Below are positions 221-55,083 of a DNA stretch of 64,000 nucleotides, in pieces. The notes beneath the pieces are model-generated. The model was not told the DNA's origin. It saw only the letters and a list, made by a program, of their open reading frames with translations, and ran no database searches. The stretch comes from a virus: positions 154,056-218,055 of IMG/VR virus record IMGVR_UViG_3300036766_002289; one strand, 5' to 3'. The position numbers and the translations under genes were made by a program. Numbering within the stretch: the stretch's first letter is position 1; each line of letters starts with the position of its first letter.

Positions 221-308
221 TTTATTGTGTCCTTTCTTAAACTAAAAGCTCCAACATCTTTACTGGAGTAACTTTAGAAGAATTCTCTAAAAATTTCTTG
301 ATAGGGGC

Positions 309-14794: not shown

Positions 14795-15065
14795 ACTGTT
14801 GTCTGGGGAAACCGTTGAATGTCGTCCGCGTGGTAGCTCCATGACCCCTAAGATTAAGTCTGGCCAATTGATAACAATATCACCAGACCTATCTGAACTA
14901 CATAAGGGTGACGTAGTGTTCTGTAAGGTTAAAGGCAAGTATTTCGTTCATCTGTTATCTGCTATCCAAGGTGAACGTTATCAGATAAGTAATAACCACA
15001 ACCATGTTAATGGCTGGATTGGCAAAAATTCTATGTTTGGTAAAGTAGTAAAGGTATCAGACTAA
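14772..15065 (+). CDS. S24/S26-like peptidase fold protein
   Basis: 97 aa. RPRGSSMTPKIKSGQLITIS and GDVVFCKVKGKYFVHLL match the beta-fold and nucleophile region (Ser in GSSM) of LexA/signal-peptidase-like proteases. There is no DNA-binding or membrane domain, and the general-base Lys cannot be placed with certainty. It may be a mini-protease or an inactive relative. Confidence 0.6.
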   Translation: MNKHFADKLLSGETVECRPRGSSMTPKIKSGQLITISPDLSELHKGDVVFCKVKGKYFVHLLSAIQGERYQISNNHNHVNGWIGKNSMFGKVVKVSD

Positions 15066-15253
15066 TGGAACTCCAGAAACGAAAACCAGAATATGCAATT
15101 CCAATATGGTGTCAAATGCCAATGGAGGAACATTTGTGTTTTGGTGGCTGTTGGGGAATTTCGAGTGGTAGAGTCGCGGAGGAAGGGCACGAATACTGTA
15201 AGGACTGTGAGTATAACGAAGATAATCTAAATGTGTCCAGTGGTGTAAGGTAG
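15065..15253 (+). CDS. small cysteine-rich hypothetical protein
   Basis: 62 aa with CFGGC and YCKDCEY, a possible zinc site. It starts in a TAATG overlap with the previous stop. Its last codons run into the tRNA-like element beginning at 15234, so the end of the message may be structured. Confidence 0.5.
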   Translation: MELQKRKPEYAIPIWCQMPMEEHLCFGGCWGISSGRVAEEGHEYCKDCEYNEDNLNVSSGVR

Positions 15254-15418
15254 CACACTTTGGCTGAGAAGGTAAGGTTCGATTCCTATGTGGTGTTAAG
15301 GGCACGCCAGATTCAACTGGAAGTTTTAGGTTAAATTCCTAAACAGTGGTGTAAGGCTGTGATGAGCAGAGCGCACATCGAAGCCAAGGTAGATAAGGTT
15401 CGAATCCTTGCTGGGCAA
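15234..15418 (+). ncRNA. tRNA-like element with a large insertion in the anticodon arm
   Basis: TGTCCAG (15234-15240) pairs along all 7 positions with CTGGGCA (15411-15417). A D-stem GTGT/GCAC (15243-15256), a T-arm TAAGG-TTCGAAT-CCTTG (15394-15410) and a 7-bp helix CTTTGGC/GCCAAGG (15258-15264/15383-15389) are in the right places. The loop of that helix is 118 nt and holds two more T-arm-like stretches (15273-15289, 15326-15342) and repeated D-arm-like AGTGGTGTAAGG (15239, 15345). No canonical anticodon can be read. It may be an intron-bearing, nested or decayed tRNA cluster. Confidence 0.55.
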
Positions 15419-15435
15419 TTAAAAAGGAGATTACT

Positions 15436-15807
15436 ATGAAAGACCTTGTGATGGAAGTCCAGAATTTTTTTAACGGTATGAACAATGTAACCTTACTTGG
15501 TGGCCAAGTTCTGGCCCAAGTAAAAGTTGGTGATGAAGTTGAAATCGTCACCACTAGATCGGGCCGCAAAACCCGAATAGTTGGTATTAAACGATTCAAC
15601 CAAAGTCTAGACTGTGTTAATGGTGGTGTGGCTGGACTTCTATTTGAAGGAATAGGAGACTTAGATTTTAGGACTACTCCACTACCCCCAAATCCTTATA
15701 ATCCCAAGACTCAATTAGAAGAATATCTCAAGTTCAGCAGCAAAGACAACGATGCCGAAAACGTAAGGATCGTTAGGGCACCTCAACCTGTTGCTTGGCA
15801 GTTTTGA
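15436..15807 (+). CDS. stand-alone EF-Tu domain II-like beta-barrel
   Basis: 123 aa. VTLLGGQVLAQVKVGDEVEI, RIVGIKRFNQSLD and GGVAGLLFEGIGDLDF follow the strand order of elongation factor Tu domain II (G-x-V..G.IKVGDEVEI..., LLRGI). No GTPase domain and no domain III are present; the last 35 aa are Pro-rich and unassigned. It may bind tRNA ends or mimic EF-Tu; that is inference. AAGGAG precedes the start. It sits between the tRNA-like element and IF-1. Confidence 0.7.
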   Translation: MKDLVMEVQNFFNGMNNVTLLGGQVLAQVKVGDEVEIVTTRSGRKTRIVGIKRFNQSLDCVNGGVAGLLFEGIGDLDFRTTPLPPNPYNPKTQLEEYLKFSSKDNDAENVRIVRAPQPVAWQF

Positions 15808-15816
15808 GGACTAATC

Positions 15817-16026
15817 ATGAGAACACTACAATTAATATTTATGTTGCTCGGTGCGTTGCCAGCTTTGCTTATTACTAGGATGCTGCCAAATCCACATAGA
15901 AGCGGCAAACATGGACTCGCAGTATTGATGCATGTGTCGCTTATCAGCGGGACAATAATGGCTTTAATAGTCTTGGCATTGGCCTTATACATTATATTTA
16001 ATTTCCTTGAGGTCACAAATGCCTAA
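15817..16026 (+). CDS. small two-helix membrane protein
   Basis: 69 aa with two hydrophobic segments (about 5-20 and 36-62) around a short basic loop. GAGG lies upstream. No family recognised. Confidence 0.6.
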   Translation: MRTLQLIFMLLGALPALLITRMLPNPHRSGKHGLAVLMHVSLISGTIMALIVLALALYIIFNFLEVTNA

Positions 16027-16240
16027 AATTCTAGAAGAAGCCTTAATGTGGTTGGGAATTTGGGCAATTATTTTTAATATCTTTTTTGCTGTGCCCTTAT
16101 TCTTTTATTTAAGAAGCATATCAAGGGAGAAGTTTATATGCATCATGTATATTCTGCACCATTGGTTGCAGAATTTTGATTGTGGTTATGGGCAAGATGA
16201 AGTGTTGAGGGATTTAGCAAAGGTGGAAAAACATGTCTAA
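16019..16240 (+). CDS. small single-helix membrane protein
   Basis: 73 aa. One hydrophobic segment (about residues 9-32) then a charged C-terminus. The start at 16019 has TTGAGG upstream and overlaps the previous gene by 8 nt. Confidence 0.6.
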
Positions 16241-16451
16241 GGAAGATGTTATTCAGGCAGAAGGTAAAGTCTTAGAATCTTTGCCTAATGCACAGTTCAA
16301 AGTGAAGCTGGATACTGGTTATGAAATCATAGCCCATATATCTGGCAGGATGCGAAAGAACTTTATCAAGGTGATCCCAGGCGACGTTGTAGAAGTCGAG
16401 ATTTCACCTTATGATTTGACCAAGGGTCGAATCAGCCGTAGAACAAGATGA
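16233..16451 (+). CDS. infA: translation initiation factor IF-1
   Basis: 72 aa, the exact usual length. Motifs [18 protein letters not shown] and [13 protein letters not shown] are those of bacterial IF-1, an OB-fold protein that sits in the ribosomal A site with IF-2 and IF-3. Co-transcribed with small membrane proteins and directly followed, after 6 nt, by the tRNA(CUA) gene. A phage copy implies control of initiation. Confidence 0.96.
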
Positions 16452-16457
16452 TTGTAT

Positions 16458-16530
16458 GCTCTTGTAGCTCAATGGGAGAGCGACGAACTCTAAATTCGAT
16501 TGGTTGAGGGTTCGAATCCCTCCAAGAGCG
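16458..16530 (+). tRNA. suppressor tRNA, anticodon CUA (reads UAG)
   Basis: 73 nt. Acceptor stem GCTCTTG (16458-16464) pairs fully with CAAGAGC (16523-16529); discriminator G. D-arm GCTC-AATGGGA-GAGC, T-arm GAGGG-TTCGAAT-CCCTC. The anticodon stem CGAA/TTCG encloses the loop CTCTAAA, with U33, anticodon CUA (16490-16492) and A37; the outermost pair 27-43 is A-A. CCA is not encoded. The amino acid is unknown; G73 fits several, including Gln. Confidence 0.87.
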
Positions 16531-16532
16531 TT

Positions 16533-16625
16533 ATGAAAACTGCAATATTATTGCTGTACATTATAGGCAGCTTGTGCTTCCTAACAGGCAGTATATTATC
16601 CCTTATAATTCATTTTAGAGAATAA
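16533..16625 (+). CDS. micro-membrane protein
   Basis: 30 aa, almost wholly one hydrophobic helix (LLLYIIGSLCFLTGSILSL). It starts 2 nt after the tRNA end, so tRNA processing may shape its leader. Confidence 0.4.
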   Translation: MKTAILLLYIIGSLCFLTGSILSLIIHFRE

Positions 16626-16627
16626 AC

Positions 16628-16768
16628 ATGGACGAAGGACTTAAAAAGATCATGCATCTTGCCCTTGTGTCGGGCATCATTACTCTATATGCTGTATTTT
16701 ATCCATTACACGCATTGATTACATTAATTCTAACATGCTGTGTATTGTTCATCATGAGGAATGGGTAA
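16628..16768 (+). CDS. small membrane protein
   Basis: 46 aa with one or two hydrophobic segments (about 10-43) after a charged start. Begins 2 nt after the previous stop. No family recognised. Confidence 0.45.
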   Translation: MDEGLKKIMHLALVSGIITLYAVFYPLHALITLILTCCVLFIMRNG

Positions 16769-41006: not shown

Positions 41007-41768
41007 ATGGACAGAAAACAATACAATAAGGAATATAGAGAAAAAAGAATAAATCAAGGGCTCTGTGTCGGTTGCGGCTTCCCTAATAATGGAAAAAATC
41101 TATGCCAGGAATGTTTGGACAAAGCAACGGCTAAAAGAAAAGAAAATATTTTAAAAAGGTTATGTGGATGTGGCAAGCCTAGAAGAGATGGATATCAATC
41201 ATGTGAAATTTGCTCAAATAAATATAACAAAAATGAATACAACAAAAATAAAAGATTAATATCTTTGCAAAGGAAAAGTAAAAGAAATAAAAATAAAGAA
41301 AAAGGACTATGTGTTTTTTGCACTAAGCCTGCATTGCCCGATAAGACCACATGCGAATATCATTTGCAAAAAAGAACAAACTTTAGAAAGCATTGTAGGG
41401 AAAAAGGAATTTGTCCTCAATGTGGAGAATTGAAGTCTAATCCAAAAAATACTTATTGTGATGAACACCAATCTCATTGGAAAATTCGCAAACATGCTGA
41501 GGGACTTCGAATCAAAAAAGAAGTAATAAATTATTACAATGAACTATCTCAATGTGTATGTTGTGGGGAATCAAATTTGGTCTTTTTGACAATCGACCAT
41601 ATGGACAACAATGGTGCCGAACACCGAAAAAAAATTAATCGTTTTGGCGAAGGATTTTACAGATGGCTTATAAGCAATAATTTCCCAAATGGTTATCAAG
41701 TCTTATGTTTCAATTGTAATTGTGGTAGAAAGATTAATGGTGGTATATGTCCTCACAAAATATTTTAG
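41007..41768 (+). CDS. HNH-type homing nuclease with multiple zinc ribbons
   Basis: 253 aa. Four Cys-pair modules (CVGCG, CGCGKP, CVFCTKP, CPQCGEL; residues about 19-145) come before the core CVCCGESNLVFLTIDHMDNNG and CFNCNCGRK (about 185-245), the pattern of phage HNH enzymes. It is inserted between an unknown gene and RNA ligase 1, overlapping the ligase start by 22 nt. Confidence 0.82.
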   Translation: MDRKQYNKEYREKRINQGLCVGCGFPNNGKNLCQECLDKATAKRKENILKRLCGCGKPRRDGYQSCEICSNKYNKNEYNKNKRLISLQRKSKRNKNKEKGLCVFCTKPALPDKTTCEYHLQKRTNFRKHCREKGICPQCGELKSNPKNTYCDEHQSHWKIRKHAEGLRIKKEVINYYNELSQCVCCGESNLVFLTIDHMDNNGAEHRKKINRFGEGFYRWLISNNFPNGYQVLCFNCNCGRKINGGICPHKIF

Positions 41769-42475
41769 AAAAACTCATTGATTTCCCCAGGATTTTCCAT
41801 CTCCCGCATAAGCCTAATGCACAAAGAAGCGACCTTATTGCATCACAAGAAGATGTGAAGGTTATTTTCGATAACGAAGAAACCATCGTTGAAGAAAAGC
41901 TTGACGCTGCAAACTCAGGAATACTTTTTAGTGAAGAAGGTAATTTTTCAATTCGAAATAGAAATAATATTCTAAATAAAGGCAAAACTGGCCATCTGCG
42001 AGGCCCTGCTAAAATGCAATTTGCTCCAATTTATAATTGGGCTTACGAAAATAGAGATAAGTTTGAAACGCTTAATAATAATTTAGGATTTGAAGTAAGT
42101 GTATTTGGGGAATGGATGGTGGCACTTCATGGGGTTAAGTATGACAAACTACCATCTTGGTTCATTCCTTATGAATTATATGATTGGGAACATAAGAAAT
42201 TTATTTCTCACAAAATTGTTAGAAAATCTTTGCAGGAAGCAGGTTTTGTGACAGTGCCGTTATTGCATGAAGGACGATTGCCTAATTGGGAGATTTTTGA
42301 TAAGTTTTGTGCAGAAAAGAGTCCCTATTCAACAACAGATTTAAGGGAAGGTGTGGTTGTGAAGGTGTCAGATGAGAAATATTTGACTCACAGATTCAAG
42401 ATGGTTCGTAGGGGTTTTATACAGGGTTGCCACTGGAATGAACGTGCATTAACTAAGAATAAACTTTGTGATTGA
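41747..42475 (+). CDS. ATP-dependent RNA ligase, copy 1
   Basis: 242 aa. Nucleotidyltransferase motifs: TIVEEKLDAANSG (motif I KxD-A in place of the common KxDG), EVSVFGEWM (motif III), REGVVVKV (motif IV) and HRFKMVRRGF (motif V). Seals RNA breaks using ATP. The first 15 codons overlap the HNH gene. Confidence 0.82.
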   Translation: MSSQNILEKLIDFPRIFHLPHKPNAQRSDLIASQEDVKVIFDNEETIVEEKLDAANSGILFSEEGNFSIRNRNNILNKGKTGHLRGPAKMQFAPIYNWAYENRDKFETLNNNLGFEVSVFGEWMVALHGVKYDKLPSWFIPYELYDWEHKKFISHKIVRKSLQEAGFVTVPLLHEGRLPNWEIFDKFCAEKSPYSTTDLREGVVVKVSDEKYLTHRFKMVRRGFIQGCHWNERALTKNKLCD

Positions 42476-54370: not shown

Positions 54371-54445
54371 ATGCTACATTATAACCTAATGCTATTAGGA
54401 GTGTTTCTACTCTTAATAGCCTATATTTGTTTAAGAAAGAAATGA
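54371..54445 (+). CDS. 24-residue membrane peptide
   Basis: MLHYNLMLLGVFLLLIAYIC then LRKK: one hydrophobic helix with a basic end. Its TGA overlaps the ATG of RNA ligase 2 (ATGA), which supports both start sites. Confidence 0.45.
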   Translation: MLHYNLMLLGVFLLLIAYICLRKK

Positions 54446-55083
54446 AAGACTATCCATCAATTCCGAAAGTTCTAAACGAACATATCAACTCTGATTGCAT
54501 AGCCTTTCGGAAATACGACGGAAGCCAGATTCGTGTTGAATGGACTAAAAAGAAAGGCTGGCATAAATTCGCCACCAGAGGCCAACTATTCGATGCTTCA
54601 GAGAAGACATTCGGCTGTGCTGTAGATATTTTTCGCAATATGTTCGTTGGAAATTTAACCCAAGTCATTGTTGGCGAGTATCCTAAAGCCACAGAAGTCC
54701 TAGCATTTCTAGAATTCTTCGGGCCACGTTCCTTTGCTGGAATGCATGAACCTGATGATCCCAAAGAATTAGTCCTATTCGATATTAACATACATAAAAA
54801 AGGTATTTTAAGTCCAGTTGAGTTTGTCCAGAACTTTTCTCATCTTCGTTCTGCTGAGATTGTATATGAAGGTAAATTAACCGAAGGATTTATCAAAGAC
54901 GTAAGGGATGGTGCCGTACCTAGCGAATCCGCTGACCGTCCACATCCTCACATGCTTGATGAAGGCGTTGTTGTTAAGGGCGGAACTGGACACAAAATTT
55001 GGATGGCGAAAATTAAGACTTGGGAATATCTTAAAAAGATTCAGAAGTTTTTTGGGTCTACGTATGGCAGGTATTGGGAATGA
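54442..55083 (+). CDS. RNA ligase-like nucleotidyltransferase, copy 2
   Basis: 213 aa. Motif I AFRKYDGSQIR (KxDG, about residue 28), a downstream ATRGQLF, EFFGPRSFAG (motif III), LDEGVVVKGG (motif IV) and WMAKIKTWEYL (motif V). Shorter than T4 Rnl2 and lacks a C-terminal domain. Unlike copy 1 it has the standard KxDG lysine motif. Confidence 0.82.
   Translation: MKDYPSIPKVLNEHINSDCIAFRKYDGSQIRVEWTKKKGWHKFATRGQLFDASEKTFGCAVDIFRNMFVGNLTQVIVGEYPKATEVLAFLEFFGPRSFAGMHEPDDPKELVLFDINIHKKGILSPVEFVQNFSHLRSAEIVYEGKLTEGFIKDVRDGAVPSESADRPHPHMLDEGVVVKGGTGHKIWMAKIKTWEYLKKIQKFFGSTYGRYWE

Follow-up and report, generated by a model that had tools for sequence, protein, structure and literature searches.

What kind of RNA is encoded at positions 15234–15418 of the window analysed here, where the outline of a tRNA encloses further tRNA-like arms? 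The window is a stretch of 64,000 nucleotides (C1:154056–218055) from the 390,039-base virus record of a large phage, and the initial annotation, made from the same letters, offered three readings of the element: a tRNA with a novel intron, a tandem of collapsed tRNAs, or a tRNA mimic. We tentatively favour, at a level just short of probable, an expanded tRNA-like RNA gene whose product would be transcribed, end-trimmed, and left unspliced, and would show several tRNA elbows to tRNA-binding proteins.

The outer halves of the element, read on the plus strand both directly and by ARAGORN with introns allowed, constitute a complete tRNA whose helices measure 7 bp (acceptor), 4 bp (D), 8 bp (anticodon side), and 5 bp (T). 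The acceptor strands (15234–15240 and 15411–15417) pair at 7 of 7 positions, exactly as had been claimed, and the last base, 15418, is unpaired. D arm 1 (15243–15256) combines a 4-bp stem with the GG-containing loop AAGGTA; the anticodon-side helix joins 15258–15265 to 15382–15389 over 8 bp; and T-arm 3 (15394–15410; T-arm scan and ARAGORN) has a stem with 5/5 pairs and the canonical loop TTCGAAT. The pairing announced for the D, T, and anticodon-side helices is thus borne out, with 4, 5, and 8 pairs, respectively. Set against the canonical tRNA (RF00005), the element has acceptor, D, and T arms, whereas the uninterrupted 7-nt anticodon loop is absent, 116 nt lying between the strands of the anticodon-side helix.

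Within these 116 nt, also on the plus strand, T-arms and D-arm-like pieces occur twice each, together with one hairpin. T-arm 1 (15273–15289; T-arm scan) carries a canonical loop on a stem with 3/5 pairs, and T-arm 2 (15325–15343) has a 6-bp stem and the loop TTAAATT, in which C56 is lost. Between them, D-arm-like piece 2 (15293–15305) and anticodon-arm-like hairpin 2 (CCAG/CTGG; 15307–15320) were read directly, while T-arm 2 is followed by a 13-nt repeat (15344–15356) and by D-arm-like piece 3 with an enlarged loop (15349–15376). The four extra arm-like pieces agree with the initial annotation; the length of the insertion does not, as instead of 118 nt it measures 116 nt between the helix strands, or 113 nt according to ARAGORN, which reads a 72-nt tRNA-Ser(cga) with an intron at 15266–15378, and does so only with introns allowed.

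Default ARAGORN does not report the element, nor does Rfam at the gathering score, whose sole match in the window is at 16458–16530. With introns of 8–200 nt allowed, ARAGORN called the element in the window, as against a single call with an intron across 9.6 Mb of dinucleotide-shuffled sequence (150 windows), from which we conclude that the element is not due to chance; reversed sequence gave no intron-type calls in 1.21 Mb. Three T-arm words fall within 138 nt, whereas the whole 64-kb window has only 6 on both strands. What speaks for a chance arrangement of tRNA-like words is the acceptor stem, which is weaker by itself (its run of 8 bp has P 0.065 when compared with shuffled flanks), and the fold energy, which is ordinary (z −1.52; 17/200 shuffles equally good). 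The joint signals make such an arrangement extremely improbable and in practice refute it. Three other identities were tried and rejected, namely, a group I intron (no Rfam match up to E 10), a tmRNA (no ARAGORN or Rfam match), and a coding sequence, ruled out on the evidence of structure.

Repeats within the element point to its possible origin. Positions 15238–15250 recur exactly, over 13 nt, at 15344–15356, and the 18 nt at 15270–15287 match 15391–15408 at 89%; hence, a single tRNA was copied to give the first module and the last, and the middle module is, to judge from sequence, probably a more distant relative. The similarity z-scores of the modules (5.7 for 1 vs. 3, 4.3 for 1 vs. 2, and 3.1 for 2 vs. 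3) lie inside the ordinary range for pairs of the phage's own tRNAs (n = 300; median z 2.4, 95th percentile z 6.0). Inner acceptor halves are absent between the modules. The most likely origin is a tandem duplication of a tRNA that dropped the acceptor halves on the inside and left three D–T modules serially under one acceptor stem; the acceptor halves of neighbouring like tRNAs would form an inverted repeat that could readily be deleted. As an account of origin, the tandem of collapsed tRNAs proposed initially is therefore supported by the two repeats.

The element lies among translation-related genes. Upstream, a 62-aa reading frame overlaps it by 20 nt. Downstream, the next gene begins 17 nt away, at 15436, and its product is a standalone protein of 123 aa that resembles EF-Tu domain 2 (15436–15807, plus strand; PF03144, 30.4 bits at a cut-off of 30.3; EF-Tu, E 3e-7); an IF-1 gene (16233–16451) and, beside it, a tRNA with the anticodon CTA (16457–16531; ARAGORN) complete the neighbourhood. 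TAG terminates 9 of the 55 listed ORFs despite the latter tRNA. The EF-Tu domain-2-like protein has no phage homologue in PHROGs or in six phage records, and its tblastn matches are weak, the annotated ones being host-type EF-Tu. The position of its gene suggests a possible functional tie to the tRNA-like RNA. Elsewhere, the 390,039-base record contains 45 tRNA matches over the Rfam cut-off, and the window encodes an RNA ligase (41747–42475; PF09414, E 9e-23). A reading frame at 54427–55083, with no match in Pfam or PHROG, has a KYDGS motif, which we take to be ligase-like.

The initial annotation had proposed looking for the same element in related phages, and this yielded no homologue. In its own genome the element matches itself only, an exact 21-base pattern of it has no occurrence in viral contigs, and blastn of 15000–16700 in phages matched only the part with IF-1 and the suppressor tRNA. 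Synteny gave the same result: the single match to the downstream gene was a bacterial-type EF-Tu gene without the element, and ARAGORN and the T-arm scan detected no element at 28 loci reached via IF-1 or at 3 loci reached via an S24-like gene. In LR756511.1, the S24-like gene adjoins IF-1 with no element between. An intron-less homologue, with the insertion missing at the same site, was likewise not found in these searches, the blastn of 15000–16700 in phages included.

T-arm pairs that share a distant acceptor do occur in other phages. Among the matches listed, there are 133 close T-arm pairs in viral contigs, 65 of them without a normal acceptor on either arm, and a distant acceptor encloses 24 of these 65, against 3.3 expected. 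Several enclosed pairs belong to tRNAs that are canonical except for an insert in the anticodon loop, e.g., a tRNA-His (L159) and a tRNA-Thr (L133). For triple T-arms, the first enclosure test was weak among the matches listed (6/77 vs. 3.7 expected); it requires the acceptor directly after T-arm 3 and misses most members of the triple-T family described below, which have 1–2 nt between. Of 13 enclosed triple T-arms in bacterial genomes, 11 are a different thing, a normal tRNA after which the 3′ end is repeated.

Other unusual tRNA-like genes were observed as well. Six loci (L096, L104, L113, L152, L177, and L185) are nearly identical at their ends (AGTCAGG..CAGGTTCGAATCCTGTCCTGACT) and vary greatly in the middle and in length. 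Nine sequences from Streptomyces phages (L178:61–190, L194, L195, L196, L197, L198, L199, L201, and L202) resemble an ordinary tRNA into whose interior a conserved insertion is set; GAAATGC..TGTCGAA..AGTAGATA surrounds a variable segment there, and the acceptor stems change. A repeated two-helix RNA motif, AACTTRGAC..GTCYCC..CTTACAAAC, is found close to the D loop within tRNA genes, and circularly permuted copies of it occur between tRNAs (G000:C1:21.1–23.5 kb, i.e., L033:625–2990; L412 near 259–303, minus strand; and L411:2630–2681). In the L033 motif region, Rfam returned only tRNA plus weak sub-threshold matches up to E 2.

The closest counterpart in plan is an RNA with one acceptor-like stem over three T-arms, found in Streptomyces phage NootNoot, one of the scanned loci, and in phages related to it; Streptomyces phage TunaTartare has it too. 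GenBank labels part of this RNA tRNA-Ser in SparkleGoddess and Belfort, and Rfam has no family at it in the four Streptomyces-phage loci tested. RNAalifold on MAFFT alignments gave 1 covarying pair only; because these alignments misplaced stems, pairs were counted on segments cut at the T-arms (11 sequences) and on a model-fitted alignment. In 7 Streptomyces-phage sequences, 56/56 acceptor-stem cells are paired, with double changes at all 8 pairs; these acceptors were placed by a longest-run search, which favours pairing, and they fall at matching positions. The same search chose the acceptors of the other four of the 11 sequences (L215, L216, L281, and L291).

A covariance model, R1, built from ten triple-T sequences, has strong matches in many further viral contigs. 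The alignment input comprised 46 loci, of which 40 scored above 45 bits among 239 sources and 6 came from Streptomyces phages (L211, at 46.0 bits, was omitted); with four duplicate rows removed, 42 distinct sequences remained. In these, 96.3% of cells are paired and 263 are double-changed, against 62.9 in shuffled and 23–52 in slid versions, on a model-fitted alignment that leans towards its own structure. A hairpin, AATAGGG..CCCGCC, is also conserved in the family, whose members come from Streptomyces phages and from metagenomic phage contigs (e.g., L178:406–539, L193:389–527, L191:384–522, L281:4307–4443, and L216:5135–5288 on the minus strand). Phage RNAs of a plan similar to that of our element are clearly kept by compensatory change. 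The element itself scores 15.2 bits with R1, under a nearby plain tRNA (17.3) and the listed members (48–137), and nothing in its whole genome exceeds 26.5 bits; as its score is below the tRNA background, we do not file it as a member of the family, and at most it may function in a comparable way.

That the outer pairs of the element are intact and the inner ones partly damaged is suggestive, not decisive. In the reading we favour, the element would most likely be co-transcribed with its neighbours, its ends would be trimmed as in a tRNA, and the RNA would stay unspliced and structured, presenting several elbows as a sponge, decoy, or scaffold for presumed tRNA-binding targets. This is in effect the mimic of the initial annotation, now a putative one: all four helices of the outer tRNA are intact, its D loop has GG, and its T loop is canonical, which, together with the conserved analogues, favours a working RNA. 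Moreover, the 8-bp helix extends into the would-be loop positions 32–38 and 33–37, as would be more in keeping with a helix left unspliced than with the loop of a tRNA. On the other side stand the two broken pairs of T-arm 1, the missing C56 of T-arm 2, the ordinary module similarity and unremarkable fold energy, a score below R1 membership, the weak first enclosure test for triple T-arms, and the failure to find a homologue; the pairing of the outer halves may also be a legacy of the tRNA that was duplicated and not a result of selection. The last point is part of the possibility, which we rate as appreciable without thinking it probable, that a tandem tRNA array collapsed via inverted-repeat deletion and left a non-functional, decaying relic, paired on the outside by descent from a common tRNA. 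The copied modules 1 and 3, the damage to the T-arm 1 stem and T-arm 2 loop, and the lack of a detected homologue all fit such a relic, as do further unusual tRNA-like remains that the genome contains (C1:47120–47227 and G000:C1:46544–46596), whereas outer helices and loop landmarks that are all intact, and similar nested elements conserved elsewhere, argue against it. The second of these remains (L034:10545–10597) has acceptor, D, and T arms and no anticodon arm.

It is unlikely that the locus is a functional tRNA gene whose tRNA-derived anticodon-loop intron is excised by nucleases that process tRNAs, with the phage RNA ligase then joining the ends. The novel-intron proposal drew support from the outer tRNA, complete without the insertion (72 nt plus a 113-nt intron), from the ligase that the phage encodes, from the canonical tRNAs with T-arm inserts in other contigs, and from the tRNA introns of Lak phages, one possibly tRNA-encoding and reportedly absent from relatives (PMC6784885). 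It is at odds with ambiguous cut sites, several choices of which keep U33 and give different anticodons when the sequence is read, with closing pairs that reach into the loop, and with insertion ends that by eye have no acceptor-like stem of their own to direct RNase P (no inverted repeat of at least 10 nt); an intron-less homologue was not found in the searches above. Returning to the unspliced RNA, we regard as more doubtful still an extension in which the three-elbow RNA would join the EF-Tu domain-2-like product of the gene 17 nt downstream in a phage ribonucleoprotein, by which tRNA-handling factors would be intercepted or retargeted; its plan, the same as that of the triple-T family, would then have been invented independently.

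Since 2019, phage tRNAs with interruptions have been described as enigmatic. That phage RNAs with several T-arms under one acceptor stem can be strongly covarying means that not all of them are debris, and opens the function of triple-T RNAs to testing in Streptomyces phages that are in culture. Binding to tRNA-handling proteins, if it occurs, would make such RNAs a new class of phage RNA tool. In the literature searched, the Lak paper was the only clear precedent, and no report of a multi-T-arm phage RNA was found.

Group I introns and tmRNA can interrupt or expand a tRNA-like structure, and neither was matched in the element. Ordinary phage tRNA arrays have the same arms and probably the same origin, and differ in having an acceptor stem per tRNA, whereas the element has one for three modules. 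With the triple-T family the element shares one acceptor-like stem enclosing three T-arms, as well as GG-bearing stretches before the T-arms; in the family, however, the acceptor is not followed by a canonical 4-bp D arm and the spacings differ, while the element has full D and anticodon pieces. According to the Lak megaphage report, tRNA genes of these phages carry introns, one of which may itself be tRNA-like, and one intron was seen to be conserved from cohort to cohort and missing from relatives (Devoto et al., 2019; PMC6784885). A tRNA-like insertion in a tRNA gene, a large phage, and many tRNAs are common to both, and the Lak-type feature of an outer tRNA that is complete with the insertion set aside is present in the element by ARAGORN. 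What distinguishes the element from the Lak genes is the absence of detected relatives, its two extra modules, and the repeats that tie the modules to the outer tRNA.
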